Shown: positions 38,029 through 59,579 of the stretch, piece by piece
How positions within the stretch are numbered: the stretch's first letter is position 1
How the letters are laid out: the number at the start of each line of letters is the position of its first letter
NCBI GenBank assembly: GCA_021845985.1
Contig: JAJZES010000006.1
Span: 124,001-188,000, forward strand
Source of the DNA: Pseudomonadota bacterium
Lineage (GTDB): Bacteria > Pseudomonadota > Alphaproteobacteria > Acetobacterales > Acetobacteraceae
DNA: 64,000 bases
Reading direction: 5' to 3'
Program-made: the position numbers and the translations under genes
The notes under the pieces: generated by a model
The model's database searches: none
What the model saw: the letters and a program-made list of their open reading frames with translations, nothing else
What the model was told of the DNA's origin: nothing

Positions 38029-38072
38029 CCCGCCCGGCGCGCCGCCAAGCAGCCTGTTAGCGGCCGGGCGGG
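38029..38072. terminator. Inverted repeat between convergent der and the alcohol dehydrogenase gene
   Basis: CCCGCCCGGC (38029-38038) and GCCGGGCGGG (38063-38072) are perfect ten-base inverted arms with a 24-base loop, one arm inside the end of the dehydrogenase gene. No T-run follows. It could serve as a bidirectional, Rho-assisted end signal. Confidence 0.3.
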
Positions 38073-39103: not shown

Positions 39104-40275
39104 CAGGCGGGTTTCATCCAGCCGCTGACGACATGCCATTTGCGGTCCCGCGCCTGCATCATCGCGCAGGAGAGGCTGCCGGCATGCTGATCGTGGCTGA
39201 AGGTGATCGGCCCCATCAGCCCGGTGTCGAACTCGGAAATCCCCTCCAGCGCCGCCACCAGAGCATCGGGCGCGGTGTTACCGCCGGCGCGCCGCACCGC
39301 CTCGGCGAACAGCCGGCCGCTGTTGTAGCCGTGCATGCTGTAGGTCGTCGGGTGGGTGCTCGGCAGGTATTTCGCCTGTGCCGCCAGCATCGCCTTGACC
39401 GCCGGCTTGTCAGAATCGAGCGGCTCCATCACCGCGACGGCGAGGGCGCCCTCGGCCAGGGCGCCGGCCAGGGCGAAGGTCTGCGGATCACCAAGCGCGT
39501 TGTGGCCGCTGAACTGCGGATGCCAGCCGAGCTTGTTGGCCTCCCGCATGACCAGCGCCGCGTCGCGCGGGATGCCGAGGAACACGACATGCTCCGCCCC
39601 CGCCTCGCGGGCCTGGGCCACCACGCCGCTGAAATTGGTGGTGCCACGGTCGAACGGCAGGCGCTGCACGACGACGCCGGCGCGCTTGAGCTGCGCCTCC
39701 AGGCCGATGATGGCGTCCTGGCCGAAATCGTCATTCTGATAGACCGCAGCGATATGCGACTGTTTCAGCGTGCCGGTGATGTAGTCGGCCAGCACCGCCA
39801 TCTGCACCCGCACTTCCGGCAGCGTGGTGAAGGCGTAGGTCTTGGTCGGGCTGGTCAGTGCATGGCTGAACGCATACGGGAACAGCAGCGGCAGCCGGCT
39901 TTCCTGCACCAGCGGCAGCAGCGCCGCGGTGCCGGCGGTGCCGGCCGGGGCGACGATGGCAACCACCTTGTCCTGCTCGGCCAGCTTGCGCCCGGCGGCG
40001 ACGGTGCGCGAGGGATCGTAGCCGTCATCCTCGGCGATCAGCGTCACCGGGCGGCCGCCGAGGCCGCCGCCGTCATTGGCCTCCGCCACCCAGGTTTTCA
40101 GCCCGTCGCGCACCCCGGCGCCAAGCAACGACAGCGAGCCGGAGAGCGGGCCGACGAAGCCGATGGTGATCGGCCCATCCGCCGCCCGCGCCCGCGCCGG
40201 CACTGCCAGCGCCGCGGCGGCGGCGGCAAGCTGGCCGAAATGGCGTCGCGACAGCAGCCTTGATGTATTCTGCAT
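39103..40275 (-). CDS. ABC transporter substrate-binding protein, branched-chain amino acid type (system 1)
   Basis: The 390-residue protein has a twin-arginine-like leader (SRRHFGQLAAAAAALAVPARARA). A Peripla_BP_6 fold follows: ITIGFVGPLSGSLSLLGAG, VTLIAEDDGYDPSRTVAAGRKL, and HIAAVYQNDDFGQDAI. LivK-like proteins of such catabolic clusters bind aromatic or aliphatic acids as often as amino acids. GGGAGGG precedes the ATG. It follows the acyl-CoA ligase by 26 bases in the same transcript. Confidence 0.9.
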   Translation of the reverse strand: MQNTSRLLSRRHFGQLAAAAAALAVPARARAADGPITIGFVGPLSGSLSLLGAGVRDGLKTWVAEANDGGGLGGRPVTLIAEDDGYDPSRTVAAGRKLAEQDKVVAIVAPAGTAGTAALLPLVQESRLPLLFPYAFSHALTSPTKTYAFTTLPEVRVQMAVLADYITGTLKQSHIAAVYQNDDFGQDAIIGLEAQLKRAGVVVQRLPFDRGTTNFSGVVAQAREAGAEHVVFLGIPRDAALVMREANKLGWHPQFSGHNALGDPQTFALAGALAEGALAVAVMEPLDSDKPAVKAMLAAQAKYLPSTHPTTYSMHGYNSGRLFAEAVRRAGGNTAPDALVAALEGISEFDTGLMGPITFSHDQHAGSLSCAMMQARDRKWHVVSGWMKPA

Positions 40276-40301
40276 GATGACCCTCCCGTTGCCCTTTTTG
40301 C

Positions 40302-41874
40302 TCACCGCGTCAGCGAGATGCCCTCGCGTTCGCGGTCCCACAACTCGGCGCGGTGCGCCTCGGCCCACGCCTTGAGCTTGTATTTCTCGATCTTCTCGCT
40401 GGCGGTCTTGGGCAGCGCCTCGATCAGGGCGACGAAGCGCGGCACCATGAAATACGGCATGCCGGCATTGGCGAAATGGACGATCTCCGGCTCCGTCAGC
40501 GTCGCGCCCGGCAGCGCCACGACGAACACCATCACCTCGTCCTCGCCGAGTTCGGCGGCGATCGGCACCGCGGCGACTTCGAGCACGTTCGGGTGCCGCC
40601 CGATCAGCATCTCGACTTCATAGGCGGAAATATTCTCGCCGCGGCGGCGGATGGCTTCCTTGCGGCGATCGACGAAGGAGAGGAAGCCGTCTGCGTCGAG
40701 CGAGCCGCGGTCGCCGGTGTGAAACCACAGCGTCCGGCACTCGCGCAGCGTCGCCTCCGGCATCTCGAAATAACCGAGCATCATCGCCGCCGGCTCGCTC
40801 GGGCGCACGGCGATCTCGCCGACCACGCCCGGCGGCAGCACGCGGTCGGCCTCGTCGAGAATGGCGACCTCGGCCAGCCCGCGCGCCCGCCCGGCGGTGG
40901 CGCCCTTGTCCGCCGGATCGTCGGGCAGCAGCATGGTGGCGGGAAATGTCTCGGTCATGGCGTAAAGCGACGTCACCTGCACATTGTAGCGGGAGGCGAT
41001 GGCGCGATGGGTCTGGCTGGTCAGCGGAATCACCATCGCCTGACGCACCCGATGCGCGGTGTCGGCGGGTGAGGCCGGCTGTTTCAGCAGGATATTGGTC
41101 ATCGCGCCGAGCGCGTTGAACTGGGTTGCGCCGGTGCGGCTTATGTCGTCCCAGAACTGGCTGGCGGAGAAGCGCGGCGCCAGCGCCAGCGTCGCATCCG
41201 CCCACAGCGCGGCATAGCACGAGTACCAGAGCGCATTGCCGTGAAACAGCGGCAGGCAGGTGTAAAGCACGTCGTCGGCGCGGTAGCCGAAATGCTGCGC
41301 CAGATGCCGCCCGACGGCGTGCGCCTGCGCATGCGGACTGACTACCCCTTTCGACGGGCCGGTGGTGCCCGATGTATAAAGGATGCAGTGCGGATCATCG
41401 TAGCGCACCCGCGCGGCATCGGGCGGCGTGTCCGGCGCGGCGGCGAACGCCTCCAGCGGCTGACCGGCGCCGCCGCCGCCGAGGCGGAACCACAGCGTCA
41501 CCAGATCAAGTCCGGCGGCGATCTCGCCGACGCGGGCTGCCCAGTCGGCGCCGACGACGACGGCGCGGCTTTTCGACTGGGTCAGGAAATAGCGCAGCAG
41601 ATCGCCGCGCGCCGCGGTGTTGACCGGCACCGCGACGGCGCCGATCTTGCCGAGGCCCCACAGCGTGTAGAGAAACTCCGGGCCGTTCGACAGCAACATC
41701 GCGACATGATCGCCGCGCGCGATGCCGGCGGCAGCAAATCCGTTGGCATAGCGGTTGGTCCACGCGTCAAGCTCGGCATAGGTGATGCGTTGGTCGTGCC
41801 ACAGCAACCAGGTCCGCTCGCCGACGCGCCGCGCCTTGTCGGCGAGCATGTGGCCGACGGTGCGATGCTCCAGA

Positions 41875-41888
<14 letters not shown>
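40302..41888 (-). CDS. Acyl-CoA ligase (AMP-binding, system 1)
   Basis: The 528-residue protein activates a carboxylic acid to its CoA thioester through an acyl-adenylate. The adenylate-forming motifs are complete: ILYTSGTTGPSKGV, YAMTETFPAT, WFHTGDRGSLDADGF with DRRKEAIRRRGENIS, and a C-terminal EALPKTASEKIEKYKL with the catalytic lysine. The ATG overlaps the preceding ATPase gene by 14 bases. Its place inside a transporter operon suggests that the imported acid is trapped as the CoA ester. The acid cannot be named from sequence. Confidence 0.9.
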
Positions 41889-42598
<710 letters not shown>

Positions 42599-42606
<8 letters not shown>

Positions 42607-43372
42607 CGGCCGGCGCCTCACCGAGATAGGCGGCCATCACCGCACGGTCGCGCAGCACCGCCTGCGGCACGTCATGGGCGATGACGCGCCCGGCATCCAG
42701 CACCACCACCTCGTCGCAGAGCCGCGCCACCAGCGCCATGTTGTGCTCGACCAGCACGATGCCGAGGCCGCGCACATCGCGCAGTTCGCGCAGCATGTCG
42801 GCAAGGCGGTCGATCTCGGCGTCGTTCAGCCCGGCCACCGGCTCGTCGAGCAGCAGGAAGCGCGGCGCCGCCATCAGACTGCGCGCCAGATCGACCAGCT
42901 TGCGATGGCCATAGGGCAGCAGCGCCATGTCGCGGTCGGCATCGGCGGCGAGGCCGATGGCGTCGAGCGCGGCCAGCGCGCGGTGGCGCGCCGCCGCCTC
43001 CTGCCGCCGCGCAGCGGGCAGCGCGAACAGCTCGGCCAGCAGCCCGTAATGCAGGTCGCGGTGGCAGCCGGCGCGCAGCGTATCCAGCGCGGTGAAGCCG
43101 GCGACCAGCTCCGGGTGCTGGAACACCCGGCCGATGCCGCGCGCGGCGATGCGGTGCATCGACAGGCCGGCAAGCTCGGTGCCGTCGAGCCGGATGGAGC
43201 CGGCACTCGGCCGGGTGATGCCGGAGATGCAGTTGAGCAGTGTGCTCTTGCCGGCGCCGTTGGGGCCGATCAGACCGAGGATGCGGCCGGGCGCGGCGGT
43301 GAACCCGACATCGCGCACCGCGGTCAGCCCTCCGAACCGCACCGTCAGCCGGGTGATGGCCAGTCCGCTCAT
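42599..43372 (-). CDS. livG: ABC transporter ATP-binding protein LivG-like (system 1)
   Basis: The 257-residue ATPase shows Walker A GPNGAGKST, the Q-loop GIGRVFQHPELV, signature-region LLPYGHRKLVDLARSL (a degenerate LSGGQ, common in LivG), and Walker B FLLLDEPVAGLND. The C-terminal VVLDAGRVIAHDVP is LivG-like. It overlaps the permease stop (ATGA). Confidence 0.92.
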
Positions 43373-44289
43373 GTCAGCCGCCACGACCGCGGCGCGATTC
43401 CGGCGAGGCCGCGCGGCAGGAAAATCATCGCCAGCACCAAAGCGAGGCCGAACACCAGGCCCGGCGCATCCTTGATGCCGCGGAACGCCTCCGGCAGCAG
43501 CACGAAGAACACCGCCCCCAGCACCGGCCCGGCGCGGCTGCCGAGACCGCCGACGACAACCATGCCGAGGAAGCTGATCGACAGGCCAAGGCCGAAACTC
43601 TCGGGATTGATGTAGCGCACCAGATAGGCATAGAGGCCACCGGCGATGGCGGCGTAGAAGGTGCTGAGCGCGAAGGCGGCGACGCGGAAGCGGGCGATGC
43701 CGATGCCGAGCGTGCCGGCGGCGATCTCGCTGTCGCGCAACATCAGCATCGCCCGGCCGGTGCGCATGCGCGCGACATTGCCGGCGCACCACAGCCCGAG
43801 CGCCAGCACCGCCAGGGCAACATAGTAGAGCGCACGGCCATTGTTGAGCACGAGGCCGGCGATGTGCGGCGGCGCCAGCTCCAGCCCGGCGCCGCCGCCG
43901 GTCAGCCCGCGCCACTCGAACAGCGCCTTCTGCACCACTGTACCGAAGCCCAGCGTGGCGATGGCAAGATAGAGATTGCGCAGCCGCAGCGCCGGCAGCG
44001 CGGCGAGCGCGCCGATGCCGGTGGACAGCAGCGCCGCGGCGAGCAGCGCCAGCGGGAACGGCAGCAGCCCGCGCTGCGTCAACAGGCCGGTGGCATAGGC
44101 ACCGATGGCAAAGAACGCTGCATGACCCAGGCTGATCTGTCCGGCTAATCCGGTCAGCAGATTCATCCCGATGGCGACCAGCGCATAGATGAAGGTCAGC
44201 GTCAGCAGATAGGTGACATAGCCGCCGACACCCCACGGCAGCGCCAGCAGCGCCGCAGCGAGCGGCAGCAGCAGGCGGCGGCCGGTCAT
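43369..44289 (-). CDS. livM: ABC transporter permease LivM-like (system 1)
   Basis: The 306-residue inner-membrane permease has about nine hydrophobic segments with LLTGLAGQISLGHAAFFAIGAY, LRLRNLYLAIATLGFG, and the coupling loop AMLMLRDSEIAAGTLGI. It overlaps livH by four bases (ATGA) and livG likewise, so all four membrane/ATPase subunits are translated in series. Confidence 0.92.
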   Translation of the reverse strand: MTGRRLLLPLAAALLALPWGVGGYVTYLLTLTFIYALVAIGMNLLTGLAGQISLGHAAFFAIGAYATGLLTQRGLLPFPLALLAAALLSTGIGALAALPALRLRNLYLAIATLGFGTVVQKALFEWRGLTGGGAGLELAPPHIAGLVLNNGRALYYVALAVLALGLWCAGNVARMRTGRAMLMLRDSEIAAGTLGIGIARFRVAAFALSTFYAAIAGGLYAYLVRYINPESFGLGLSISFLGMVVVGGLGSRAGPVLGAVFFVLLPEAFRGIKDAPGLVFGLALVLAMIFLPRGLAGIAPRSWRLT

Positions 44290-45158
44290 ACCTTGCGCAT
44301 CCGCACCCGGCCGAGCAAACCCTCCGGCCGGATGGTCAGCACGGCGATCAGCACGATGAAGGTGAGCGCATCGCCGAATGACGGCGACAGATAGGCGCCG
44401 ACCAGATTTTCCAGCACGCCGAGCACGAGGCAGCCGCCAAACACGCCCCACAGGCTGGACAGCCCGCCGAGCACGCCGCCGGCAAACCCCTTGATCAGCA
44501 ATGCGCCCATCATGTTGGTGTCGAGGAACAGCGCCGGCGCCACCAGCACGCCGGCGATGCCGCCGGCCAGTCCGCCCAGCCCCCAAGCAAGGGCAAACGA
44601 ACGGCCAATCGGGATGCCGACCAGCCGCGCCATCACCGCGTCCTGGCTGGTGGCGCGCAGCGCCAGCCCGGCCCAGGAGTAGCGCAGCAGCAGCGTGACC
44701 CCAAGGATCACCGCCAGCGCCACGCCGATATTGGCAACGCTGTCGAGCGGCAGCGGCACGCCGGCGACGAACACTGGCGGCGCATCGCCGAGCGGCGAGG
44801 GAAAGATATGCGTCTCGTGTCCCCAGATCATTCCGGCGATCGAATTGAGCACGATATTGAGGCCGAGCGTGGCGATCACCGCCGACAGCACCGGCCCGCC
44901 GATCAGCGGGCGGATCACCAGAATCTGCACCGCGACCCCCTGCAGCACGGCGAAACCGAGCGCCAGGGCCACCGCCGCCCACCAGCCGAGGCCGTAGCGA
45001 TCCAGCAGCGAATAGGCGACGAAGGTGCTGACCATCGCCATTTCGCCCTGGGCGAAATTGGGGATGTCGGTGACCCGGATGACGATGGCGAGCGCGATTC
45101 CGACCAGCGCATAAAGGCTGCCCGCGGCCAGTCCGCCGAGAATGAGGTTGCCGATCAC
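44286..45158 (-). CDS. livH: ABC transporter permease LivH-like (system 1)
   Basis: The 290-residue permease starts with GTG (VIGNLILGGLAAGSLYALVGIALAIV). It carries NFAQGEMAMVSTFVAY, LRATSQDAVMARLVGI and FAGGVLGGLSSLWG, typical of LivH. AAGGTG lies eight bases upstream; a stronger GGAGG further upstream instead serves a three-codon ATG frame that stops at once. It is the first gene of the operon livH-livM-livG-livF-ligase-binding protein-dehydrogenase. Confidence 0.9.
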   Translation of the reverse strand: MIGNLILGGLAAGSLYALVGIALAIVIRVTDIPNFAQGEMAMVSTFVAYSLLDRYGLGWWAAVALALGFAVLQGVAVQILVIRPLIGGPVLSAVIATLGLNIVLNSIAGMIWGHETHIFPSPLGDAPPVFVAGVPLPLDSVANIGVALAVILGVTLLLRYSWAGLALRATSQDAVMARLVGIPIGRSFALAWGLGGLAGGIAGVLVAPALFLDTNMMGALLIKGFAGGVLGGLSSLWGVFGGCLVLGVLENLVGAYLSPSFGDALTFIVLIAVLTIRPEGLLGRVRMRKV

Positions 45159-45218: not shown

Positions 45219-45911
45219 CTATTTGGCCGTCGTCAGCGGCATCAGACCGACATCGCGCGCCAGCGCCGGCGCCGGCGCGCTGCTCAGCATGCGTTCAAAC
45301 AGATCGCTGACCGCGGCCGTGGTCTGCGTCGCGGTCCACGGCCCGCTGTGGCGGAACCATTTGGGGATCCAGTTGAGCGCGCCAAGAATGGTGAACATCG
45401 CCAGTTTCGGGTCGCAGGCGACGATGCTGCCGTCGGCGATGCCGTCGCGCACCAGATCACGCAGCGCCTGCTCGAAGCGGTCGCGCATCTGCACCATGCG
45501 CGCATGGTCCGGCGGCGTCAGCGCGTTTTCCTCCATCAGCACGACGCAGGCGCTGAGTTCATCCAGCATCTGTTCGAGATAGAGCGCCAGCGTCAGCCGC
45601 AGCCGGCCGCGCCCGGTGGCTTCCTGTTGCCGCGCGCGGGCGAGGCTGTCGAAGGCGACATCCATCGCCTTCTCGAAGCAGGCCATCAGCAGCGTCTGCT
45701 TGTTGGGGAAATAGTGGTACAGCGCCGCCTTGGTGACGCCGAGGTTCTGCGCGATCTCATCGAGCGACGTGGCATGAAAGCCGCGCCGGTTGAACGCCGC
45801 CGCCGCCTCGCGCAGCAGCGCCGCGCGCTTGCTCTCGTACAATTCGTCCTTGCTGGGAACGGTGTTCTTCCAGACCGCCATGGGCGCTGCAATCACCTCG
45901 CTTGTCTGCAT
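45219..45911 (-). CDS. TetR-family transcriptional regulator
   Basis: The 230-residue protein has the TetR helix-turn-helix at about residues 30-80 (AAAAFNRRGFHATSLDEIAQNLGVTKAALYHYFPNKQTLL split over helices 1-4). A long helical ligand domain follows. Regulators of this type beside acyl-CoA genes commonly repress them and release DNA on binding an acyl-CoA, which is inference here. The start may be 45911 or the internal ATG at 45881. A palindrome covers the upstream start codon, which would fit autoregulation if the downstream start is used. It is divergent from the MaoC hydratase gene. Confidence 0.88.
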   Translation of the reverse strand: MQTSEVIAAPMAVWKNTVPSKDELYESKRAALLREAAAAFNRRGFHATSLDEIAQNLGVTKAALYHYFPNKQTLLMACFEKAMDVAFDSLARARQQEATGRGRLRLTLALYLEQMLDELSACVVLMEENALTPPDHARMVQMRDRFEQALRDLVRDGIADGSIVACDPKLAMFTILGALNWIPKWFRHSGPWTATQTTAAVSDLFERMLSSAPAPALARDVGLMPLTTAK

Positions 45912-45979: not shown

Positions 45980-46432
45980 ATGGGTCTGCATGTCGAAGAG
46001 TTCGTGCCGGGCCATGTCACCATCACCCGCGGTCGCACCGTCGGCGAAGGTGATATTTCGCTGTTCGCCGGTCTGTCGGGCGATCACAACCCGCTGCATG
46101 TCGATGCCGCCTTCTGCGCCGAAACCGAATATGGCGGGCGGATCGCGCATGGGCCGCTCAGCCTGTCGATGGCGATAGGGCTGATGTCGCAACAGAATCT
46201 GATCGACGGCACGGCCATCGGTCTGCTCAACGTCAACTGGAACTTCGTTGGCCCGGTCAGGATCGGCGACACCATCCACGCCTGCGTCACCGTCCAGCAG
46301 GCGCGTCTGAGCCGCAAGCCGGGCCGCGGCGTGGTCACTCTGCGGCTGGAGGTGATCAACCAGCATGGCGCCACGGTGCAGGATGGCACCATGACGCTGC
46401 TGATGAAGGCGCGGGATCAGGCGAGTTCGTAG
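45980..46432 (+). CDS. MaoC-family (R)-enoyl-CoA hydratase
   Basis: The 150-residue hot-dog-fold protein carries the hydratase-2 motif GDHNPLHVDAAF with the catalytic Asp and His (about residues 34-41). The downstream GRIAHGPLSLSMAIGL segment is also present. It would hydrate a 2-enoyl-CoA to an (R)-3-hydroxyacyl-CoA. GGAGG precedes the ATG. It is the only plus-strand gene of the island interior, and its 3' end overlaps the DUF35 gene tail-to-tail by 16 bases. MaoC and DUF35 proteins associate in steroid side-chain degradation, so this neighbour may be a functional partner. Confidence 0.88.
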   Translation: MGLHVEEFVPGHVTITRGRTVGEGDISLFAGLSGDHNPLHVDAAFCAETEYGGRIAHGPLSLSMAIGLMSQQNLIDGTAIGLLNVNWNFVGPVRIGDTIHACVTVQQARLSRKPGRGVVTLRLEVINQHGATVQDGTMTLLMKARDQASS

Positions 46433-46884
46433 TGAAAATCGGTGATCCGTCCGGCGCGCTGGGCGCCGAACACGACGTTCACCCGGGTTCCCGGCCGCAG
46501 CCGCGCCGCCGCCGCCGGCACATCGCTCAATGCGAGGCCGCGGACGAAATTGACCATCGCGGTGCTGACGCCGTCCAGCCGGACATAGGCGATGGCATAG
46601 GGCGGCGGCGGCAGATGCTCAAACGCGGCGGTGACGATCGTTGCCGCCTCGATCTCGCCGGCCAGCCCCGCCTCGACCCAGCCGTCGCAGGGCTGGAAGG
46701 AGCGTTCGCAATAGGCGCGCGGCGGCAGATAGACGAGGCCCGAGTCGCTGCAGCGTGAGGCCAGGATGCGGCCCTCACGCAGCGCCGCAAAGAACGTGCC
46801 GGCGACCTTGCCGACCGAGTAGGTGTAGCGGACGTGCCATTCGCCATGGATCACGTCGTCATCGACGGCCTGGGTTGTGGTCAT
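46417..46884 (-). CDS. DUF35 OB-fold/zinc-ribbon acyl-CoA-associated protein
   Basis: The 155-residue protein has an N-terminal degenerate zinc ribbon (Cys45, Cys59, Cys66; the usual second cysteine is Ser48). A C-terminal OB-fold follows (VEAGLAGEIEAATIVT...PPYAIAYVRLDGV). DUF35 proteins bind thiolase-fold enzymes as scaffolds, for example the ChsH2 DUF35 domain with the Ltp2 aldolase. It is 12 bases downstream of a thiolase-fold gene, the last of a twelve-gene minus-strand run. Partial loss of zinc ligands suggests a structural role without bound metal. Confidence 0.85.
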   Translation of the reverse strand: MTTTQAVDDDVIHGEWHVRYTYSVGKVAGTFFAALREGRILASRCSDSGLVYLPPRAYCERSFQPCDGWVEAGLAGEIEAATIVTAAFEHLPPPPYAIAYVRLDGVSTAMVNFVRGLALSDVPAAAARLRPGTRVNVVFGAQRAGRITDFHYELA

Positions 46885-46896
46885 GGTCTGTCTCCC

Positions 46897-48090
46897 TTAT
46901 GCGTGGTCGTCGCCGAGCACTGTGCAGGTGAAGAATTGCGTCGAGCCGCCGATCGCGGTGGCGACGGCGGCGTGGACGTTGCTGACCTGATTGGCGCCGG
47001 CCTCACCCATGATCTGCAGCGCGGCGTCCGCGGCACGCACCAGACCGGTGACGCCGATCGGATTGGCGCACAGCGTGCCGCCGGACGGATTGACCGCCAG
47101 CATCCCGCCATCGAGGTCGAAGCCGCCGGCATCGCTGATCGCCGCGGCGGCGCCACGGCCGCAGAAGCCGAGCGATTCGAGCTGCGGAAACTGGAACGAG
47201 CTGAACGGATCATAAATCTCGGCAACCTGGATCTGGCGCAGCGGATCGACGATGCCGGCCTGCCGATAGGCGGCCCAGGCGGCGTGATGAAACCCGTCAT
47301 GATCGGCAAATTCGCTGTCCGACCAGTAGGTCATCCGGTCACCCATGAACACGCTGTGCGAAATGCCGGAGGCGCCGCGCACCCAGGCCGGGCGGGTGCA
47401 GCGCGTGCGCGCCACCATGTCGCCGGCGCACAGCACCATCGCCGCCGCACCGGAGGATCGCGGGCAGATGTCGAACCGCTTGAACGGCCAGGAAACCCGC
47501 GGACTGTCCATCACCTCGGCGACCGTCACCGGCTTGCGCAGATGGGCGTTGGGGTTGCCGGCGGCGTTGCGGCGGGCGCGCACCACGACGCGGGCGAACT
47601 GCTCCTCGGTGACGCCGTAGCGGTGCATGTAGCGCTGCGCCGCCAGCGCCGTCATCGTCACCGTGTTGAGGGCGAAATCATGCTCATAGAAGCGGTCCCA
47701 GATCAGGTTCAGCACATGCTGGGCGTCCGGCGTCTCGGCAACGCGGTCGGCGCCGACCACCAGGACGCAGCGGAACATGCCGCTGGCGATATGCTGATAC
47801 GCCGCCTGAAACGCCGATCCGCCGGTGGCGCCGCCGGTGCTGACGCGCATGAACGGCTTGCCTTGCGCCCACACGGCATCGACCGCCCATTTGTCGGCAT
47901 CGTTGACGCCCATGAACTGCGTCGGCGCCAACGAGAAGACGACGGCATCGACATCGTCCGGCGCCAGCCCGGCATGGCGCAGCGCCGCCAGCGTCGCATC
48001 CTGCGCCAACTCGACATAGGTGCGGTCGGCGTGGTGCGTCCGATACGGCAGTTGCCCGACCCCGACCACCGCGACATTGCGTTGTGTCAT
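46897..48090 (-). CDS. Thiolase-fold protein lacking the catalytic cysteine (Ltp/SCP-x-like)
   Basis: The 397-residue protein is full length for SCP-x-type thiolases. The position of the nucleophilic cysteine is glycine (VSTGGATGGSA, Gly87), and the GHP histidine is asparagine (SGGTLCANPIG, Asn343). A cysteine remains near the end (FFTCTVLG). Without the nucleophile it should not perform ordinary thiolysis. Thiolase-fold aldolases such as Ltp2, which lack this cysteine and work with DUF35, are the nearest functional model. It abuts a second thiolase-fold gene (one base between them) and the DUF35 gene, so a heteromeric complex is likely. Reaction and substrate are unproven. Confidence 0.85.
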   Translation of the reverse strand: MTQRNVAVVGVGQLPYRTHHADRTYVELAQDATLAALRHAGLAPDDVDAVVFSLAPTQFMGVNDADKWAVDAVWAQGKPFMRVSTGGATGGSAFQAAYQHIASGMFRCVLVVGADRVAETPDAQHVLNLIWDRFYEHDFALNTVTMTALAAQRYMHRYGVTEEQFARVVVRARRNAAGNPNAHLRKPVTVAEVMDSPRVSWPFKRFDICPRSSGAAAMVLCAGDMVARTRCTRPAWVRGASGISHSVFMGDRMTYWSDSEFADHDGFHHAAWAAYRQAGIVDPLRQIQVAEIYDPFSSFQFPQLESLGFCGRGAAAAISDAGGFDLDGGMLAVNPSGGTLCANPIGVTGLVRAADAALQIMGEAGANQVSNVHAAVATAIGGSTQFFTCTVLGDDHA

Positions 48091-48091
48091 C

Positions 48092-49183
48092 TCAGACCCT
48101 TTCAAACACGGCGACGACCTGACCCTGCTGGGCGTAGCCGTGCGCCCCCTGCGCCGCCGCCCAGGCCGGGCGCGGACGCTGCACCGGCCCGGCGCGCTGC
48201 GCGGTCTGCAGCACCGCTTCGGCGGCGCCGACAAGGCCGGTGCAGAAATACGGATTCTGCGCGAAGGCGCCGCCGGAGGGCGACAGCGCCGCCGGGTCCG
48301 CCGCGGCAAAGACGCGGCGATAGGCGGCGTCGTGCCAGCCGGTCTGGCTGTCGAGTTCGAGCACGTCGAGCGCCGCGAGGTCGATGCCGGCCATGCCAAG
48401 CGCCCGGCTGCTCGCCTCATGCAGCGACGACAGCCCGGCAAGCCGCTCGCGGCCAAGCTGGTAGGACGCCACCGACCAGCCGAGGCCGGCGATGCGGGCC
48501 AGCGGCCGGGCCGCCGGATGGCGCGCCAGCCAGTCGCCGCTCGCCAGCACCATCGCCACCGCGCCGTCCGACAGTGGCGCGCGATGTCCCTGGCGCAGCG
48601 GGTAGGCGAGATAGGGCGAGGCGGCGATGGCCTGTTCCGAGGGCGCCGGCTTCGTCGCCGCGCGCGGGTTGCGGGCGGCGCGGGCGGCGTTGTCGAGCAC
48701 CTGCCGGGTTGCGTCATGCTCGGAAAATCCGTACGCGGCGGCGACGGCGCCGGCGAACAGGCCATCGGCAATCGCCGCATTCAGCCCGATCGGCCGGGTG
48801 AAGAACGGCTCGGCGCGCATCCGCATGACATCCTCGAACGGCGCCGTCGAGGATTTGTTCCAGCTTACCACAAGGCCGAGGCCGAACGGCCCGGCCGCCA
48901 GCCGGGTCGCGCCGAGACACAGCCCGGTCAGGCCGGAATCGGTACACTTCATCTCGTCCTTCAGATAGGCGCCGGCCGGCATCGCCAGCAGCATGCTGGA
49001 GATGCTGCGTCCATCCAGCTCGTCGCAAGCGGCGAGCGTGACCTGGTCGATGGCGGCGCGTTCGACGCCGGCATCGTCGAGCGCCGCACGCGTCACCGTG
49101 AACACCATCTCCTCCAGCCGCTCGCCGGCGGCCCTGGTGCGCGCCGGTGCGAGTGCCAGCCCGAGCACGAATACGTCCATCAT
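48092..49183 (-). CDS. Second thiolase-fold protein, divergent active site
   Basis: The 363-residue protein resembles thiolases over its length (VTRAALDDAGVERAAIDQVTLA; SDGAVAMVLASGDWLA; SPSGGAFAQNPYFCTG). The nucleophile position holds threonine, with a cysteine one residue early (Cys80 in KCTDSG). The GHP histidine is asparagine (Asn310), the same change as in its neighbour. It is shorter than most thiolases. The two genes are separated by one base and probably form a heteromer in which one subunit may be mainly structural. I use MMDVFV at 49183; the second Met is equally possible. Confidence 0.8.
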   Translation of the reverse strand: MMDVFVLGLALAPARTRAAGERLEEMVFTVTRAALDDAGVERAAIDQVTLAACDELDGRSISSMLLAMPAGAYLKDEMKCTDSGLTGLCLGATRLAAGPFGLGLVVSWNKSSTAPFEDVMRMRAEPFFTRPIGLNAAIADGLFAGAVAAAYGFSEHDATRQVLDNAARAARNPRAATKPAPSEQAIAASPYLAYPLRQGHRAPLSDGAVAMVLASGDWLARHPAARPLARIAGLGWSVASYQLGRERLAGLSSLHEASSRALGMAGIDLAALDVLELDSQTGWHDAAYRRVFAAADPAALSPSGGAFAQNPYFCTGLVGAAEAVLQTAQRAGPVQRPRPAWAAAQGAHGYAQQGQVVAVFERV

Positions 49184-49202: not shown

Positions 49203-50012
49203 TCAGCCGAGCCAGCGCTTGCGCCGCTTGTAGTGTTTGACCTCGCGATAGCTGCGCCGCGCCTGCGTCAGTGACAGGCCGAGATAGAAGGCGCGCATGT
49301 CCTCGTTGGCCAGCAGCGCGGCACGGTCGCCGTGCAGCACGACGCGGCCGGTCTCCATGACATAGCCGTGGTCGCAAATCTCCAGTGCCGCCGCGGCATT
49401 CTGCTCGACCAGCAGGATCGCCATGCCCTCGGCACGGTTGATGCGGCGGATGGTGGCGAACAATTCCTGGGCGATCCGCGGCGCCAGCCCCATCGACGGC
49501 TCGTCCAGCAGCATCAGCCGTGGCCGCGCCATCAGCGCGCGGCCGACCAGCAGCATCTGCATCTCGCCGCCGGACAGATAGCCGGCGGTGCGCCGCATCA
49601 GCCGCTCCAGCGCAGGGAAGTAACCGAGCACCCGCGCCAGTTCCGCCGGCTCGTCGAAATCGCGGCGAAAATGTGCGCCGGCGCGCAGATTCTGCGCCAC
49701 GCTCAGATGCGCCAGGACGCGCCGGCCGTCGAGCACCTGCACCAGCCCGCGGGCGACGATCGCGCACGGGTCGGCATTGGTGATGTCGGCGCCGGCGTAG
49801 CCGATATGGCCGGCGGTGACGCGGCCTTGCTCGGTCGCCAACAGGCCGGAGACGGCGCGCAGCGCCGTCGTCTTGCCCGCCCCGTTGGCGCCGAGCAGCG
49901 CCACCACCGCGCCCGCCGGAACCGTCAGGCTGGCGCCGCGCAACACCTGGATGACGCCGTTGAACACGACATCGACGTTGCGCAACTCCAGCAGCGGCGG
50001 ATCGGCGGACAT
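49203..50012 (-). CDS. livF: ABC transporter ATP-binding protein LivF-like (system 2)
   Basis: The 269-residue ATPase has Walker A GANGAGKTT, LVQVLDGRRVLAHLSV, signature YLSGGEMQMLLVGRAL and Walker B LMLLDEPSMGLAP. A basic C-terminal extension (YREVKHYKRRKRWLG) is longer than in standard LivF. It lies between its binding protein (ten bases) and the thiolase-fold gene, tying transport system 2 to the unusual thiolase module. Confidence 0.9.
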   Translation of the reverse strand: MSADPPLLELRNVDVVFNGVIQVLRGASLTVPAGAVVALLGANGAGKTTALRAVSGLLATEQGRVTAGHIGYAGADITNADPCAIVARGLVQVLDGRRVLAHLSVAQNLRAGAHFRRDFDEPAELARVLGYFPALERLMRRTAGYLSGGEMQMLLVGRALMARPRLMLLDEPSMGLAPRIAQELFATIRRINRAEGMAILLVEQNAAAALEICDHGYVMETGRVVLHGDRAALLANEDMRAFYLGLSLTQARRSYREVKHYKRRKRWLG

Positions 50013-50021
50013 GTGGTGCCG

Positions 50022-51239
50022 TCACCACTTCGTCAGTGCGGGCGCCGGCATCCAGTCCGCGGTCAGCGGCACGATCGCGCCGTTGCGCACGGTCAGCGCC
50101 TTGGCGCGCACTTCGCCCGCCGGGAACGGCCGGCTGCGGTCGAAATGCAGCGTCGGGGTGAGGCCGAGCATCTCGGTCTCGCTGTAATCGTGCCCGAGCA
50201 GCGCGTCGTACATCGCCTGACCGGTCACCGCGCCCTTGCCGGTGCCGGCAATCGCCTGTTCCAGCACCCGACAGGCCAGCAGCGTCTGCGCCGCCGCCTG
50301 CGCCGCGACGATGCCCCAACTGCCCTTGCCGTCATGGTATTTCCCATACGCATCGGCCGCCGCAAGGCCCGGCTGGTTGTACGGGGCGAAGGCAAACACC
50401 GAGAAATCGCCTTCCAGATCGGCCAGCGGGATCGCCTTTGCCGCCTCGGTCAGCCCGTTATGCGACGATGAGGCGATCGGTACGCTGATGCCGAGATCCT
50501 TGCGCGCCCGCGCCACCGCGACGACCTGGGCCGTCGTCGCGCCGATCATGATGATGTCCGGCTGATGGCTGGCCATGCGGCGAATCTGATCGGTGGCATC
50601 GACCGGACTGTCATCGACCCATTGCTGATCGGCGATGACGAAGCGGTCGGGATAGGTATTGGCCAGATGCACCACACCTTTGACCTGATCCTCATAGCCG
50701 GCGCGGCCCTGCGTGCTGACGGTGCCGATGCGCAGCGCCCGCTTGTCCGGCAGCGCCTGCTGCAGATGCGCAAACAGGGCGGCGAACTCCTGGCTGTAGG
50801 TCGGGCGGAACGAATAGCCCCAGCGGTCGGGTGCCCAGACCAGCCCGACCATCGCCGTCGGCATGATCATCGGCACTTTGTCCTCCGGCAGCCGCTTCAT
50901 CAGCGCCACCAGATCGGGCGTGCCCATGCCGAGATACATCACCGGCTTCTCGCTGCTCAGAATGCCTGGCCAGCTCTGCGCGACGACGCTGGTGTCGTAG
51001 CGCATGTCGTGCACCTTGAGCACAATGCGGGTGCCGAGACGCGGCCCCTGTGTCGCGTTCCACCACGCGGCGATGGCGCGATGGCCGCTGTGCCAGCTTG
51101 GCATCACATCGGCGAACGGGCCGGTGAAATCGACGGCGGTGCTGAATGTATAGACGGTGTCCTGCGCCCGCGCGGCGCTCGCGGCAAGGACCAGGGCGGC
51201 GGCGGGGGCGGCGGCGAGCAGGCGGCGGCGCGTCAGCAT
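50022..51239 (-). CDS. ABC transporter substrate-binding protein, branched-chain amino acid type (system 2)
   Basis: The 405-residue protein has a Tat-like leader (TRRRLLAAAPAAALVLAASAARAQ). A divergent Peripla_BP_6 fold follows: FSTAVDFTGPFADV, RIVLKVHDMRYDTSV, and IGTVSTQGRAGYEDQVKGV. It differs strongly from the system 1 binding protein, so the two importers probably take different compounds. It is followed by the LivF-like ATPase. Confidence 0.88.
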   Translation of the reverse strand: MLTRRRLLAAAPAAALVLAASAARAQDTVYTFSTAVDFTGPFADVMPSWHSGHRAIAAWWNATQGPRLGTRIVLKVHDMRYDTSVVAQSWPGILSSEKPVMYLGMGTPDLVALMKRLPEDKVPMIMPTAMVGLVWAPDRWGYSFRPTYSQEFAALFAHLQQALPDKRALRIGTVSTQGRAGYEDQVKGVVHLANTYPDRFVIADQQWVDDSPVDATDQIRRMASHQPDIIMIGATTAQVVAVARARKDLGISVPIASSSHNGLTEAAKAIPLADLEGDFSVFAFAPYNQPGLAAADAYGKYHDGKGSWGIVAAQAAAQTLLACRVLEQAIAGTGKGAVTGQAMYDALLGHDYSETEMLGLTPTLHFDRSRPFPAGEVRAKALTVRNGAIVPLTADWMPAPALTKW

Positions 51240-51270: not shown

Positions 51271-52323
51271 TCATCGGTGCGGGTACGGCCAGATCCGGTA
51301 GGCGGCGACGACGAGGCCCCAGCGATGCGCCAGCCCGCGCGGCTCGAAGATCAGGCCGGCAAGGATGACGCTGCCGAGCAGAACATTGGTGGCGGCAAAG
51401 ATGGCGCCGCCCTGCAGCCCGACATCGGCATCGAGCAGGGCACCGCCGGCGCTGCGCAGCATCTCCTGCAGCAGCGTGACGAACAGCGTGCCGAGAATGG
51501 CGCCGAGCGGTTGGGTCATGCCGCCGACCAGCAGCATGCCGACGTACCACACCGATTGCCACAGGGTAAATTGCTCGGTGGTGACGTAGCGCACCTGATA
51601 GGCATAGAGCGCGCCGGCCACTCCGGCGAAGAACGCGCCGGCGAAGAACGCCGCCAGCTTAGTGCGCAGCGGGTCGATACCGAGCACGCGCGCCGCATTG
51701 TCGTTGTCGCGCATGGCGCGGAACGCCCGGCCGGCACGGCTGCGGCCGACGTTGAACGCCGCCGTCGCCATCACCACCAGCACGCCGAGGCAGAGCAGAT
51801 ACATCGCCGTGGCGCCGCCGAGCCTGATGCCGGCGACCGTGGGCGGATCGACGCCCAGCCCATCGGCGCCGCCGAACCACGCCGCCGGCAGGCGGATGAT
51901 CAGGATCGGAAACATCACCTGCGCCGCCAGCGTCGTCAGCGCCAGATAGAACCCCTTCACCCGCATCGCCGGCAGCGCGAAGGCGACGCTGCCGGCCGCC
52001 GCCGCGAGACCGGCCAGCGGCAGCACCAGCGGCAGCGGCAGCCCGGCCAGCGCCAACCGGGCCGCGACAAAGGCGCCAGCGCCGACAAACGCCGACTGGC
52101 CGAGATTGACCTGACCGGCCATGCCGGTGGTGATCTGCAGGCCGAGCACGGCGATGGCGGTGATGCACAGCATGGTCAGCAGGCCGATGAGATGCGCCCC
52201 GGCAACCAGCGGCAGCAGCACCAGCGCCGCGAGCAGCGCCGCCAGCCACAGACGCTGCGGCAGGGTGCGCAACAGCCCGGCCTCGGCCGCATGATCGGTG
52301 AAGAAAACCCCTGACGGCAGCAT
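51271..52323 (-). CDS. livM: ABC transporter permease LivM-like (system 2)
   Basis: The 350-residue permease has LQITTGMAGQVNLGQSAFVGAGAF, MRVKGFYLALTTLAAQ and the coupling loop FRAMRDNDNAARVLGI. Its N terminus is about 40 residues longer than in system 1. The ATG shares a base with the livH stop (TGATG). Confidence 0.92.
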   Translation of the reverse strand: MLPSGVFFTDHAAEAGLLRTLPQRLWLAALLAALVLLPLVAGAHLIGLLTMLCITAIAVLGLQITTGMAGQVNLGQSAFVGAGAFVAARLALAGLPLPLVLPLAGLAAAAGSVAFALPAMRVKGFYLALTTLAAQVMFPILIIRLPAAWFGGADGLGVDPPTVAGIRLGGATAMYLLCLGVLVVMATAAFNVGRSRAGRAFRAMRDNDNAARVLGIDPLRTKLAAFFAGAFFAGVAGALYAYQVRYVTTEQFTLWQSVWYVGMLLVGGMTQPLGAILGTLFVTLLQEMLRSAGGALLDADVGLQGGAIFAATNVLLGSVILAGLIFEPRGLAHRWGLVVAAYRIWPYPHR

Positions 52324-53207
52324 CACAGCCGCTCGATCACGCGCCAGCCGAACAGGCCCTGCGGCCGGATCAGCAGCACGATCACCATCAGCGCGAACGG
52401 GAAGATCGGCGACATCGCGCCGTTGGTCAGCGGATCGAGATAGGCCGAGGCCAGCGCCTCGCCGACCCCGACGATGACGCCGGCGAGCGCCGCGCCGCGC
52501 ACCGATTCCAATCCGCCGAGCAGCGCCACCGGCAGCGCCACGAAGCCGATGCCCGCCGCCGAGGCGCCGAGCAATCGGCCCGACAGCAGCACCATCGCCG
52601 CGAGGCAGGCCAGCGCGCCGCCGAGCAGCCAGGCGATCGTCGTCGCCCGCCGTACCGATATCCCCATCGACAGCGCGGTGAAATGGTCCTCCGCCACCGC
52701 CGCCAGCCGCAATCCCTCGCGCGTGTGCAGAAAGAACCAGTGCAGCACTTCGGTCAGCAGCACGGTCAGCACGCCGCCGAGCAGCAGAGTGCGATTGAGC
52801 CGGAACGGGCCGAGATGCAGGCTGCCGCTCGGCAACACGGCGGGAAACGGCCGCGTCTCGGCGCCCCACAGCAGTTGCACCAGCCCCTGCAGCAGCACCA
52901 GCAGGGCGATCGTCGCCAGTACAATGGTGAAGCCCGACTGGCCGACCAGCGGGCGGAACACCAGCCGCTCCAGCACCACGCCGAGCAGCCCGGTGCCGGC
53001 CAGCGCCGCCGGCACGGCGAGCCACAGCGGCAGTCCGAGCGCGGATGCCGCCGTCCACAGCAGGAAGGCGCCGACCAGAACGAGTTGGCCCTGCGCCACA
53101 TTGACGATGCGGGCGGCGCGATAGATGACGACGAAGGACAGCGCCACCAGACCATAGACGAGGCCGGTCAGCACGCCGCCGATCGTCGTCTGCGCCAGTT
53201 CGATCAT
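52323..53207 (-). CDS. livH: ABC transporter permease LivH-like (system 2)
   Basis: The 294-residue permease shows GVLTGLVYGLVALSFVVIYRA, NVAQGQLVLVGAFLLW, and LRLAAVAEDHFTALSMGI. It starts by overlapping the stop of the long-chain-type acyl-CoA ligase (ATGA). With the LivM, LivF, LivG and binding protein nearby, importer 2 is complete though its genes are interleaved with catabolic genes. Confidence 0.92.
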   Translation of the reverse strand: MIELAQTTIGGVLTGLVYGLVALSFVVIYRAARIVNVAQGQLVLVGAFLLWTAASALGLPLWLAVPAALAGTGLLGVVLERLVFRPLVGQSGFTIVLATIALLVLLQGLVQLLWGAETRPFPAVLPSGSLHLGPFRLNRTLLLGGVLTVLLTEVLHWFFLHTREGLRLAAVAEDHFTALSMGISVRRATTIAWLLGGALACLAAMVLLSGRLLGASAAGIGFVALPVALLGGLESVRGAALAGVIVGVGEALASAYLDPLTNGAMSPIFPFALMVIVLLIRPQGLFGWRVIERL

Positions 53208-55117
53208 GCCGCCGCCACGTCATTCAGCGCGACGCGGGCCACCAGCGCGGAGATCTGCCCGTCCTGATAGCGCACCTTGATATGCGCCTCGCACTCGGCG
53301 CTGTCGTCGTACAGTGCGGCGATGATGTCGCGGAAGCTCTCCTCGATCTGGCCGCGCCGCAGCTTGCGCGAGCGCGTCAACTCGGCGTCGTCGGCGTCCA
53401 GCTCTTTCGGCAGAGTGGCAAACCGGCAGACCCGCGCAGCCGGCTCCAACAACATGTTCACCTGCCCGACCAGCGCCGCGACGCGGGCGCGGATTTCCGG
53501 CAACTGGCTGAGTTCGGTGAAAGTGCCGTAGGACAGTCCGCATTTCTCGGCGAAGCGGCCGGCGATCTCGGCATTAATGTTGACCAGCGCGGTGACAAAG
53601 CGTCGGCTTTCATCGCCGATCACCATCGCATCCCTGACGAAGGGCGAGGCGCGCAAATGGTTCTCGATGAATTGCGGCGGAAACGCGCGGCCATCGGCCA
53701 GCCGCCGCATATCGGCCAGCCGGTCGAGAAACACCATTTCGCCGTCGTCGCGCAACCGTACCGCGTCGCCGGTGCGCAGCGCCGTGCCGCAGTAAAACGC
53801 CGCCGAAGCGGCAGCGTCGCGCCAGTAGCCGTTGAACTGACCGCCCTGCTCGACCAGCAACTCGCCGGCGTCCGACAGCGCCACCGTCAGCGCCGCGCCA
53901 CCCGGATCGCTCGGCAGCAGCCGACCCATCGTCGTCGGATCGACGCTCTCGGCCCAGTGTGCCGCGATCAGGCCAAGCTCGGTCGAGCCATAAAGATTGG
54001 ACAGGCGCACGCCGAAGGCACGGAACAGCCGGAACACCTCGGCCGACATGCCGGCGCCGCCGCTGAGCGCGGCGACGCAGCGCGACAGGCCGAGATTGTC
54101 GCGAATGCCCGCCAGCACCAGCCGATCGGCCAGCGCCGCGCCGATGCCGCCGCGGCGGCCGGCGCGCACCGCCCAGTCAAACAGCGCCCGCCGCCACGCC
54201 CGCGCATCGCTCATCTGCGCCTGCACGTCGGCCGCCATCATCTCCCATTGCCGCGGCGTGAACAGCAGAAACGCCGGCGCCAACTCGCGCAGATCGGCGC
54301 GCACCGTCTCCGGCTTTTCGGCGAAAGCGACGGTCAGCGGCGCCAGCAGACCGAGCGCCAGGCCGGTGATCTGTTCCGCCGCCCAGGCCGGGGAGATGTA
54401 CGACAGATAATCGGCGCCGGCCGGCAGCCGAAACGCCGCCATCAGCCGGTAGGCGTTCTCCAGCAGATAGCGGTGCGTCAGCACCACGCCCTTCGGCAGG
54501 CCGGTGGTGCCCGACGTATAACACAGCACTGCTGCGTCATCGGCACGGCCGGCATCGACCATGCGTTCGAACCATGCCGGGTCCGCCGCGTCACGTTGCC
54601 GCCCGTCGTCGAGCAGCGCGGCGCAGGCGATCAGCCGCGCATCCTGGTAATGCCACAGCCCGCTGCCATCGACGAAGACGATGCGTCGCAGGCCGCTCAG
54701 CGCGCCGGCGGCAAGCGCCTTGTCCACCTGCTCCTGATCCTCGGCGACCAGCAGCCGGGCGCCACTGTGCTCGACGATATGGCGCAGCTCCGCCGCGGTG
54801 GCATCGGGATAGAGGCAGACCACGCGGGCACCGGCGCACAACGCGGCATATTCGATCCAGTAGGTCTCGACGATGTTCTCGCTGATCACGGCAACCACTT
54901 CGCCGGGGGCGAGGCCGGCGCCGGCCAGCCCGGCGGCAAGCGCGCGCACCGTCGCCAGCACCTCGCGCCAGCTCCAGCCATGCCACACGCCATGATGTTT
55001 GCGCCGCATCGCCACGCGGTCGGCATGGTCGCGGCAGCGGTCGCGCAGCAAATGCGGCAGCGTGCGGCCCGCCGCGCTGCGCGGGTCGCTGCCGGGCACG
55101 CCGTGCAGCCGCCGCAT
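53204..55117 (-). CDS. Long-chain-type acyl-CoA synthetase (AMP-binding, system 2)
   Basis: The 637-residue ligase belongs to the larger FadD15/bubblegum-like class. It shows CYTSGTTGLPKGVVLTH, a tyrosine-containing LYGSTELGLIAAH, ALRTGDAVRL with LDRLADMRRLADGR, and a C terminus with TRSRKLRRGQIEESFRD. That class activates bulky or long acyl chains, including steroid- and terpenoid-type acids, but the substrate is not known here. It lies between the LivG-like ATPase and LivH, three and minus four bases away. Confidence 0.9.
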   Translation of the reverse strand: MRRLHGVPGSDPRSAAGRTLPHLLRDRCRDHADRVAMRRKHHGVWHGWSWREVLATVRALAAGLAGAGLAPGEVVAVISENIVETYWIEYAALCAGARVVCLYPDATAAELRHIVEHSGARLLVAEDQEQVDKALAAGALSGLRRIVFVDGSGLWHYQDARLIACAALLDDGRQRDAADPAWFERMVDAGRADDAAVLCYTSGTTGLPKGVVLTHRYLLENAYRLMAAFRLPAGADYLSYISPAWAAEQITGLALGLLAPLTVAFAEKPETVRADLRELAPAFLLFTPRQWEMMAADVQAQMSDARAWRRALFDWAVRAGRRGGIGAALADRLVLAGIRDNLGLSRCVAALSGGAGMSAEVFRLFRAFGVRLSNLYGSTELGLIAAHWAESVDPTTMGRLLPSDPGGAALTVALSDAGELLVEQGGQFNGYWRDAAASAAFYCGTALRTGDAVRLRDDGEMVFLDRLADMRRLADGRAFPPQFIENHLRASPFVRDAMVIGDESRRFVTALVNINAEIAGRFAEKCGLSYGTFTELSQLPEIRARVAALVGQVNMLLEPAARVCRFATLPKELDADDAELTRSRKLRRGQIEESFRDIIAALYDDSAECEAHIKVRYQDGQISALVARVALNDVAAA

Positions 55118-55119
55118 GC

Positions 55120-57014: not shown

Positions 57015-57039
57015 GTCGTCACCTTCCCCGCCGGATCGC

Positions 57040-59126: not shown

Positions 59127-59579
59127 TCAGGCCGGGCGGCGGCGCATCAGCGCGATGCGGCGGCAGGTGGCGACCTCGGTGCCGTCCTGATTCAACGCAC
59201 GATGGAGAAACTCGACGATGCCGTCGGCGGGGCGGGATTTGCTGGCGCGCGTGGCCAGTACTTCGGTGCGGGCGCGCAGCGTGTCGCCGTGGAACACCGG
59301 CCGCGGGAAGCGCACCTCGGTCATGCCGAGATTGCCGACCGTCGTGCCCAGAGTGGTGTCGTTGACCGTCATGCCGATCAACAGCCCGAGGGTGAACAGG
59401 CTGTTGACCAGCGGCCGGCCGAACTCCGTCGTCGCCGCGAAATGGGCGTCGAGATGCAGCGGTTGCGGGTTCATCGTCATCGTGCTGAACAGCACGTTGT
59501 CGGTTTCCGTGACGGTGCGGGTCCAGGCGTGCTCGAACACCATGCCGACGGCGAACTCTTCAAACCACAGACCGGCCAT
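59127..59579 (-). CDS. MaoC-family hydratase (itaconyl/mesaconyl-CoA hydratase-like)
   Basis: The 150-residue hot-dog protein begins [25 protein letters not shown]. It has [13 protein letters not shown] in place of the classical GDxNPxHxD motif, so His and the final Asp remain but the first Asp is replaced. This variant is common in hydratases of branched or dicarboxylic acyl-CoAs. It follows the carboxylase alpha subunit by five bases, so it may hydrate the carboxylated enoyl-CoA product. Confidence 0.82.

Follow-up and report, generated by a model that had tools for sequence, protein, structure and literature searches.

What can a thiolase do once its nucleophilic cysteine is lost, and why would two such proteins be encoded side by side? 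A locus of an Acetobacteraceae bacterium (Alphaproteobacteria; GenBank assembly GCA_021845985.1) raises this question. We analysed 64,000 nucleotides (nt) of contig JAJZES010000006.1 (positions 124,001 to 188,000, hereafter the window), in which two abutting thiolase-fold genes, A and B, are followed by a gene for a DUF35 protein and, tail-to-tail with it, by a MaoC-family hydratase gene. A, B and the DUF35 protein probably form a heteromeric aldol-lyase that acts on a beta-hydroxyacyl-coenzyme A (CoA) and ends a round of beta-oxidation. The four genes are:

48092–49183, minus strand: A, 363 amino acids (aa), thiolase-fold short subunit of the Ltp4-type clade, predicted non-catalytic partner
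46897–48090, minus strand: B, 397 aa, thiolase-fold subunit of the Ltp3-type clade, predicted catalytic
46417–46884, minus strand: DUF35 protein, 155 aa, zinc ribbon and OB domain
45980–46432, plus strand: MaoC-family hydratase, 150 aa, convergent with the DUF35 gene, linkage not conserved

All four reading frames are intact and arranged as an earlier note, made from the sequence alone, had described. A single nucleotide separates A from B, 12 nt separate B from the DUF35 gene, and the 3' ends of the convergent DUF35 and MaoC genes share 16 nt. Pfam placed OB_ChsH2_C and zf-ChsH2 in the DUF35 protein, a MaoC domain in the hydratase and both Thiolase_N and Thiolase_C_1 in B, all above cut-off; on A, the same two thiolase domains scored slightly below it (22.6 versus 26.4 and 25 versus 28 bits).

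The thiolase active site in A and B

Predicted models of both proteins show the thiolase fold and match thiolases across nearly their full length (mean predicted local distance difference test, pLDDT, 82.3 and predicted template modelling score, pTM, 0.88 for B; 84.4 and 0.89 for A). The best structural match of both was the archaeal complex 6esq/6et9 (Z scores of 54 with B and 43 with A). We then located the catalytic positions by aligning both proteins with structurally characterised Cys thiolases in three MAFFT modes, and by a profile-profile comparison of A with B. In B, the nucleophile column holds Gly87, the column of the HDCF His holds Tyr293 (in YDPF) and that of the GHP His holds Asn343. 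The corresponding residues of A are Gly84, Asp278 and Asn310 in all three modes, and the last two columns lie 32 residues apart, versus 50. Thus Gly87, Asn343 and Asn310, which the earlier note had named, were borne out by alignment. Its choice of Thr81 as the cysteine equivalent of A was not: Thr81 results from an ungapped register, while the three MAFFT modes and a first MAFFT run give Gly84, and the profile comparison pairs Gly84 of A with Gly87 of B. Judged by its sequence, A is without the cysteine under either register.

The same losses run through both families. Among the 28 A-type and 28 B-type rows of the second tree described below, none carries the nucleophilic cysteine. This agrees with the claim that two abutting thiolase-fold genes lack it, and such conservation rules out a sequencing error. 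B-type rows are uniform at two of the three positions, with Gly at the Cys position and Asn at the GHP His position in 28/28, and have Tyr (26/28) or Gln (2/28) at the HDCF His position. A-type rows vary more: Gly (25) or Ala (3) replaces the cysteine, Asn (25/28), Asp (2) or His (1) stands at the GHP position, and the HDCF position is occupied by Asp, Glu, Ser, Ala or His. The GHP His is therefore present in one A-type and no B-type row. By comparison, all six Cys-thiolase rows have Cys, His and His, and all three Ltp2/Sal-type rows have Gly at the Cys position and Tyr at that of the HDCF His.

Two further features set the subunits apart. A loop of the form D...GR..S occurs in 27/28 A-type rows and in 0/28 B-type rows; by thiolase anatomy it should sit near the dimer interface. 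In alignments of orthologs, in which the window row is included and several rows are near-identical, Gly87, Tyr293, Cys341 and Asn343 of B are invariant (21/21 rows), as is Asn310 of A (22/22 rows). Across the wider set of B-type rows, Cys341 is Cys in 22/28 and Ser, Thr or Gly in 6/28, Ltp3-type proteins among the latter.

Relationship to the Ltp3/Ltp4 pair

Two trees were built. The first comprised 71 rows after removal of 24 near-duplicates, fragments and paralogs, and the second 65 rows after removal of six more long or odd ones (a Natrinema pair, a Cupriavidus pair, one Cys paralog of the window genome and a Salipiger protein), of which five have Gly and one has Cys at the nucleophile position. 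In the first tree the A clade had a support of 88 (Shimodaira-Hasegawa-like approximate likelihood ratio test, SH-aLRT, only), and the basal branches of the A side were one Natrinema and one Cupriavidus protein (supports 87 and 91). In the second tree the A-type rows form one clade (100/99) with Ltp4-type proteins inside, the B-type rows form another (99/94) with Ltp3-type proteins inside, and each clade contains a Tsukamurella, a Nocardia and a Streptomyces counterpart. Separate from both are the Ltp2/Sal types (100/99; three rows, with 6ok1 as the only characterised protein) and the Cys thiolases (97/93), so that the phylogeny proposed in the earlier note as a check places A and B outside the cysteine-containing clade. 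The branching order is similar in the A and B clades, running through contig C44 of the window genome with the Ltp3/Ltp4 types, a group that we call type ii, Syntrophales and the window type, as for a jointly inherited pair.

Family models gave a corresponding picture. The best NCBIfam match was PRK08313 for B (302.7 bits, below the cut-off of 514) and PRK07937 for A (108.4 bits, below the cut-off of 419). An adjacent thiolase pair on a Tsukamurella plasmid exceeds both cut-offs (734.3 and 593.4 bits), and the window proteins share 36% (B) and 29% over 268 residues (A) identity with it. The Tsukamurella pair adjoins a double DUF35 gene. Its surroundings also encode a P450, a crotonase, a CoA ligase and a protein labelled as steroid 3-ketoacyl-CoA thiolase; from this context and the known gene order, rather than from a database label, we take the pair to be Ltp3/Ltp4. 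Its best PDB matches, at E 1.2e-35 and 1.2e-15, are thiolase-fold proteins of other kinds, and by this search the Ltp3/Ltp4 type is without a close solved structure. The window pair thus reads as a divergent proteobacterial branch of the Ltp3/Ltp4 kind of heteromeric 'aldol-lyase', with an apparently non-sterol role. This kind, and not Ltp2 as the earlier note had supposed, is the nearest named one by both NCBIfam and the tree. Nor does the shared His-to-Asn change mark a new subfamily: the 28/28 B-type and 25/28 A-type rows that carry it include the Ltp3/Ltp4-type proteins of Tsukamurella and Nocardia, and judged by these rows it is general to the Ltp3/Ltp4 kind.

On contig C44 (C44:30666-33903, equal to L059:7666-10903) the window genome encodes another thiolase-like pair, accompanied by a double DUF35 gene; in this pair, B has Gln for the catalytic Tyr and A has Asp for Asn.

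Could the window module itself cleave the side chains of sterols or bile acids, in the manner of the aldolases Ltp3/Ltp4, Ltp2 or Sal? The best family matches of A and B are those of the Tsukamurella Ltp4/Ltp3-type pair, and the predicted fold lies near Ltp2-ChsH2 (Z 46.8) and Sal-Shy (Z 46.0). In addition, three of 24 ortholog loci (23 contig loci, mostly metagenome bins, and one Simplicispira plasmid) carry CoA-transferase-family and nitronate-monooxygenase-family genes downstream of A/B/DUF35 (L072, L073 and L077), kinds known from steroid ring degradation. But both scores fall far under cut-offs that the Tsukamurella pair passes (108 versus 419 and 303 versus 514 bits), no steroid family stood above cut-off among the matches listed for a set of ten proteins of the window, which included A, B and DUF35, and the C44 pair with its double DUF35 resembles the sterol arrangement more. 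We consider such a role very unlikely.

The operon and its counterparts elsewhere

A, B and the DUF35 gene are the final genes of a long minus-strand run that starts with a carboxylase block and a second MaoC gene. A gap of 145 nt separates this MaoC gene from an acyl-CoA dehydrogenase gene, downstream of which lie genes for a crotonase, a PaaK-like protein, a CoA ligase, a Liv-type transporter and its substrate-binding protein. Most of the transporter genes are named after similar, annotated genes of Simplicispira. The features around the module are:

45219–45911, minus strand: TetR-family regulator
49203–50012, minus strand: Liv-type ATP-binding cassette (ABC) transporter ATPase, LivF-like
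50022–51239, minus strand: Liv-type substrate-binding protein, by our reading of the sequence
51271–52323, minus strand: Liv-type permease, LivM-like
52323–53207, minus strand: Liv-type permease, LivH-like
53204–55138, minus strand: AMP-binding acyl-CoA ligase, start codon uncertain
55120–55884, minus strand: Liv-type ABC transporter ATPase, LivG-like
55881–57068, minus strand: PaaK-like AMP-binding protein
57040–57852, minus strand: crotonase-type enoyl-CoA hydratase, start uncertain; by linkage the likelier hydratase partner
57824–58981, minus strand: acyl-CoA dehydrogenase
59127–59576, minus strand: second MaoC protein, nearest RipB/Ich but below cut-off, belonging to the adjoining carboxylase block
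59585–61531, minus strand: biotin carboxylase subunit
61540–63138, minus strand: acyl-CoA carboxylase carboxyltransferase, closest to methylcrotonyl-CoA carboxylase; the block is apparently no fixed neighbour of A/B/DUF35

Beyond the TetR gene lies a second Liv-type transporter run (38057–45158) that includes a substrate-binding protein of its own, what we read as a zinc alcohol dehydrogenase, and a CoA ligase whose nearest family is PRK06155 (below cut-off). Simplicispira encodes a ligase with 49% identity to this one near its A/B/DUF35 genes.

Relatives of A occur in Rhodospirillales and other Alphaproteobacteria, Rhodobacteraceae, Comamonadaceae and other Betaproteobacteria, and Sphingomonas, as well as in one Acidobacteria bin and, at about 40%, in four Syntrophales/Deltaproteobacteria bins. 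Distribution among whole genomes is patchy: with distant pairs included (E 1e-10), matches were found in 4 of 289 genomes at class, 17 of 395 at order and 1 of 398 at phylum level, the last being the window's own. No relative was found in the viral contigs scanned.

The three genes stay together. B adjoins A at 23/24 loci and DUF35 does so at 22/24, the missing cases being contig ends (L089 stops within A, L070 within B). At all 21 loci with both genes measured, A and B overlap or lie at most 35 nt apart. We then counted relatives of the other window proteins (BLAST, E 1e-12), scoring short contigs as misses. Of the 24 loci, 13 have the crotonase, 10 the acyl-CoA dehydrogenase, 10 the Liv ATPase, 8 the TetR regulator and 3 the substrate-binding protein; the carboxyltransferase was found at 3, the tail-to-tail MaoC at 1, and neither the second MaoC nor the PaaK-like protein at any. 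The hydratase partner is thus more often a crotonase. The counts do not support the proposal that the MaoC protein, encoded here on the opposite strand, is the linked hydratase, and we rejected MaoC as a conserved partner.

The upstream carboxylase block suggests another role, in which carboxylase and MaoC make 3-hydroxy-3-methylglutaryl-CoA (HMG-CoA) and A/B/DUF35 replace HMG-CoA lyase in this genome, releasing acetyl-CoA and acetoacetate. The carboxyltransferase indeed matches methylcrotonyl-CoA carboxylase best in the PDB (3u9r, E 5.6e-199; geranyl-CoA carboxylase 5ikl, 2.1e-140), a second copy of it was not found in the genome at E 1e-30, and no HMG-CoA lyase above the NF004283 cut-off was found there (98.9% complete). 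But acetyl-/propionyl-CoA carboxylase entries (4q0g, 9tps) match nearly as well, the nearest PDB entry of the acyl-CoA dehydrogenase is not isovaleryl-CoA dehydrogenase, and five CitE-like genes (PF03328) of the window genome could provide an (R)-HMG-CoA lyase. Elsewhere, HMG-CoA lyase stands above cut-off in 18 of 21 module-bearing genomes, carboxyltransferase relatives near A share only 29-43% identity, and in the three genomes with the nearest carboxyltransferase orthologs (72-74%) these are not on the contig that carries A, in one case as inferred from absence in L079. A literature search for methylcrotonyl-CoA carboxylase with HMG-CoA lyase and Rv2498c found no paper. As a general role we rejected this replacement, given the lyase in 18/21 genomes, the lack of a fixed carboxylase neighbour and the CitE-like genes; for the window genome itself it is improbable.

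For the window module as an aldol-lyase, the operon as read from its sequence, with CoA ligase, Liv-type transporter, acyl-CoA dehydrogenase and crotonase, fits a beta-oxidation round with terminal retro-aldol cleavage. A co-oriented gene at two ortholog loci (L075 and L089) encodes a Baeyer-Villiger-type monooxygenase, which has the fingerprint motif and matches PtlE best, at a score below cut-off; this fits a ketone product. Other neighbours vary: an indolepyruvate-type 2-oxoacid ferredoxin oxidoreductase at L068, L070 and L071 (L055 is the same contig as L071), a flavin mononucleotide (FMN) 2-hydroxyacid dehydrogenase at L068 and L071, and a pyruvate-dehydrogenase-like complex at L074, L075 and L078. 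The acyl-CoA may thus derive from various acids, and these neighbours do not single out a substrate.

The bins of Syntrophales/Deltaproteobacteria (L085-L088) have sensor-like and response-regulator-like genes upstream of A/B/DUF35. Downstream, L085, L086 and L088 carry a methylmalonyl-CoA-mutase-like mutase and a GTPase, and L085, L086 and L087 carry genes reading like CoA-transferases. An acyl-CoA carboxylase also lies downstream of A/B/DUF35 at L072 and L073.

Proposed reaction and known systems

In the reaction that we propose, A and B would pair as a thiolase-type dimer onto which DUF35 docks. The active site would lie on B, where Gly87 in the vacated nucleophile position would give space to the carbon bearing the beta-hydroxyl. 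Tyr293 would deprotonate the beta-hydroxyl of a beta-hydroxyacyl-CoA, and the bond between the alpha and beta carbons would break, with acetyl- or propionyl-CoA as the acyl-CoA product and an aldehyde or ketone as the other. A would be a degenerate partner that completes the dimer and supplies the interface loop. The remaining operon would import a carboxylic acid, convert it to its CoA ester, desaturate and hydrate it, so that the lyase closes the round. Such cleavage would suit substrates whose beta-carbon cannot become a ketone, for example 3-branched acids. In this respect the earlier note's suggestion of a two-subunit, cysteine-free core with DUF35, most simply a beta-hydroxyacyl-CoA aldolase, is supported by the Tyr that B shares with Ltp2 and Sal.

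PMC12329534 gives Tyr294 of a YDHF motif as the base and Tyr344 as the acid of TcLtp2; in CtSal, the equivalent Tyr and Cys304 are both described as essential. B retains the Tyr and the Gly, but two of the three MAFFT modes align Asn343 with Tyr344, where the other mode places a gap, and Pro295 aligns with Cys304, so the acid must differ. This absence of a second catalytic residue weighs against a lyase activity of B, as do several other points. Cys341 is a candidate acid for part of the clade and not a general answer. Gln stands for Tyr in 2/28 B-type rows, one of them from the C44 pair of the window genome, so the catalytic Tyr is not universal. The frame of B is broken in one draft bin (L069), crotonase and dehydrogenase are not at every ortholog locus, though short contigs count as misses, and both the complex and its activity are predictions from sequence.

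The DUF35 protein is altered as well. In its zinc ribbon Ser replaces two of the four Cys, and there is one extra, relocated Cys. The fourth ribbon Cys is Ser, Thr or Ala in all 19 window-type DUF35 proteins, with a Cys four residues further on, while the Syntrophales proteins keep the usual four Cys (4/4). The zinc finger of DUF35 gives the substrate cleft of Sal-Shy its shape (PMC12329534); by analogy, the altered ribbon may tune substrate specificity.

The degenerate ribbon and the lack of a complete acid-base set in the pair could also indicate a cysteine-free thiolase-fold dimer that is not an aldolase and that decarboxylates, condenses or merely scaffolds. Against this stand the conserved Tyr at the catalytic-Tyr position of Ltp2 and Sal and the dehydrogenase and hydratase of the preceding steps, which are often nearby. 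We regard it as unlikely.

If A/B/DUF35 are an aldol-lyase, their role may be broader. Tentatively, they could represent a widespread two-subunit lyase for the general, non-steroid breakdown of beta-branched acids, with one dead and one live subunit, a new acid catalyst and a ketone that is passed in some hosts to a Baeyer-Villiger monooxygenase. The acid could be Cys341 of B or a residue of the D...GR..S loop of A that crosses the interface. Such an enzyme could fill the place of the unassigned lyase that the breakdown of cycloalkylacetic or other 3-branched acids requires; (1-hydroxycyclohexyl)acetyl-CoA lyase is an orphan activity, and the literature that we searched contained no paper on cyclohexylacetyl-CoA and its lyase. 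The relatives are tractable test systems for the acid-base chemistry of a cysteine-free thiolase fold without a known acid residue, and for why one subunit is retained despite its lost active site.

How does the module compare with known systems? The acyltransferase PhlABC and the benzoylsuccinyl-CoA thiolase BbsAB share a thiolase-fold core with it, and PhlC was a match in structural and sequence searches; PhlB and BbsA are presumably the DUF35-type partners. Unlike the window pair, the BbsB row has the Cys and both His and falls in the Cys group. The archaeal acetoacetyl-CoA thiolase/HMG-CoA synthase complex (6esq/6et9), best structural match of both models, is likewise multi-component, and we take it to include a DUF35 protein. 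It differs by its catalytic Cys and both His. We also considered IpfD/IpfE, which act on ibuprofen, as another thiolase-plus-partner lyase, from their description in PMC9195938.

Closer in residues are Ltp2 with ChsH1-ChsH2 (6ok1) and Sal with Shy of Comamonas (9myr). Ltp2 shares the thiolase fold, Gly at the Cys position, Tyr at that of the HDCF His and a DUF35 partner. It forms, however, a central dimer with two DUF35 chains (PMC11321319), its DUF35 is part of the MaoC-type ChsH2, and the window pair lacks its motif His and the acid Tyr344 and belongs to a separate clade. Sal shares the catalytic Tyr, the DUF35 partner and a proteobacterial beta-oxidation context. It differs in Cys304, which is Pro295 in B, in its central Sal dimer and in the fusion of DUF35 to MaoC in Shy (PMC12329534, PMC11321319).

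The most similar system is Ltp3/Ltp4, for whose genetics the primary paper is said to be that of Wilbrink from 2012. According to a review (PMC6678751), the enzyme that cleaves sterol side chains branched at C24 is a 'heteromeric aldol-lyase (Ltp3-Ltp4)', and ltp3 and ltp4 are named aldol lyases in two further papers (PMC6593523, PMC8708139). In Mycolicibacterium neoaurum, deletion of ltp3 or ltp4 did not abolish 4-HBC formation and atf1 was required (PMC10398937), which argues against a role of the pair in one step. The window pair belongs to the same two clades; in both systems the genes are adjacent, both subunits are cysteine-free, B has YxPF and NP, and a DUF35 gene adjoins. The window differs in its single rather than double DUF35, in a Liv-type transporter operon in place of sterol genes, and in an A that is shorter between the two active-site motifs. 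With relatives in compact operons of Alpha-, Beta- and deltaproteobacterial-type genomes, and with a window operon unlike sterol loci, the Ltp3/Ltp4 enzyme type, known from actinobacterial sterol breakdown, appears to be a wider kind.

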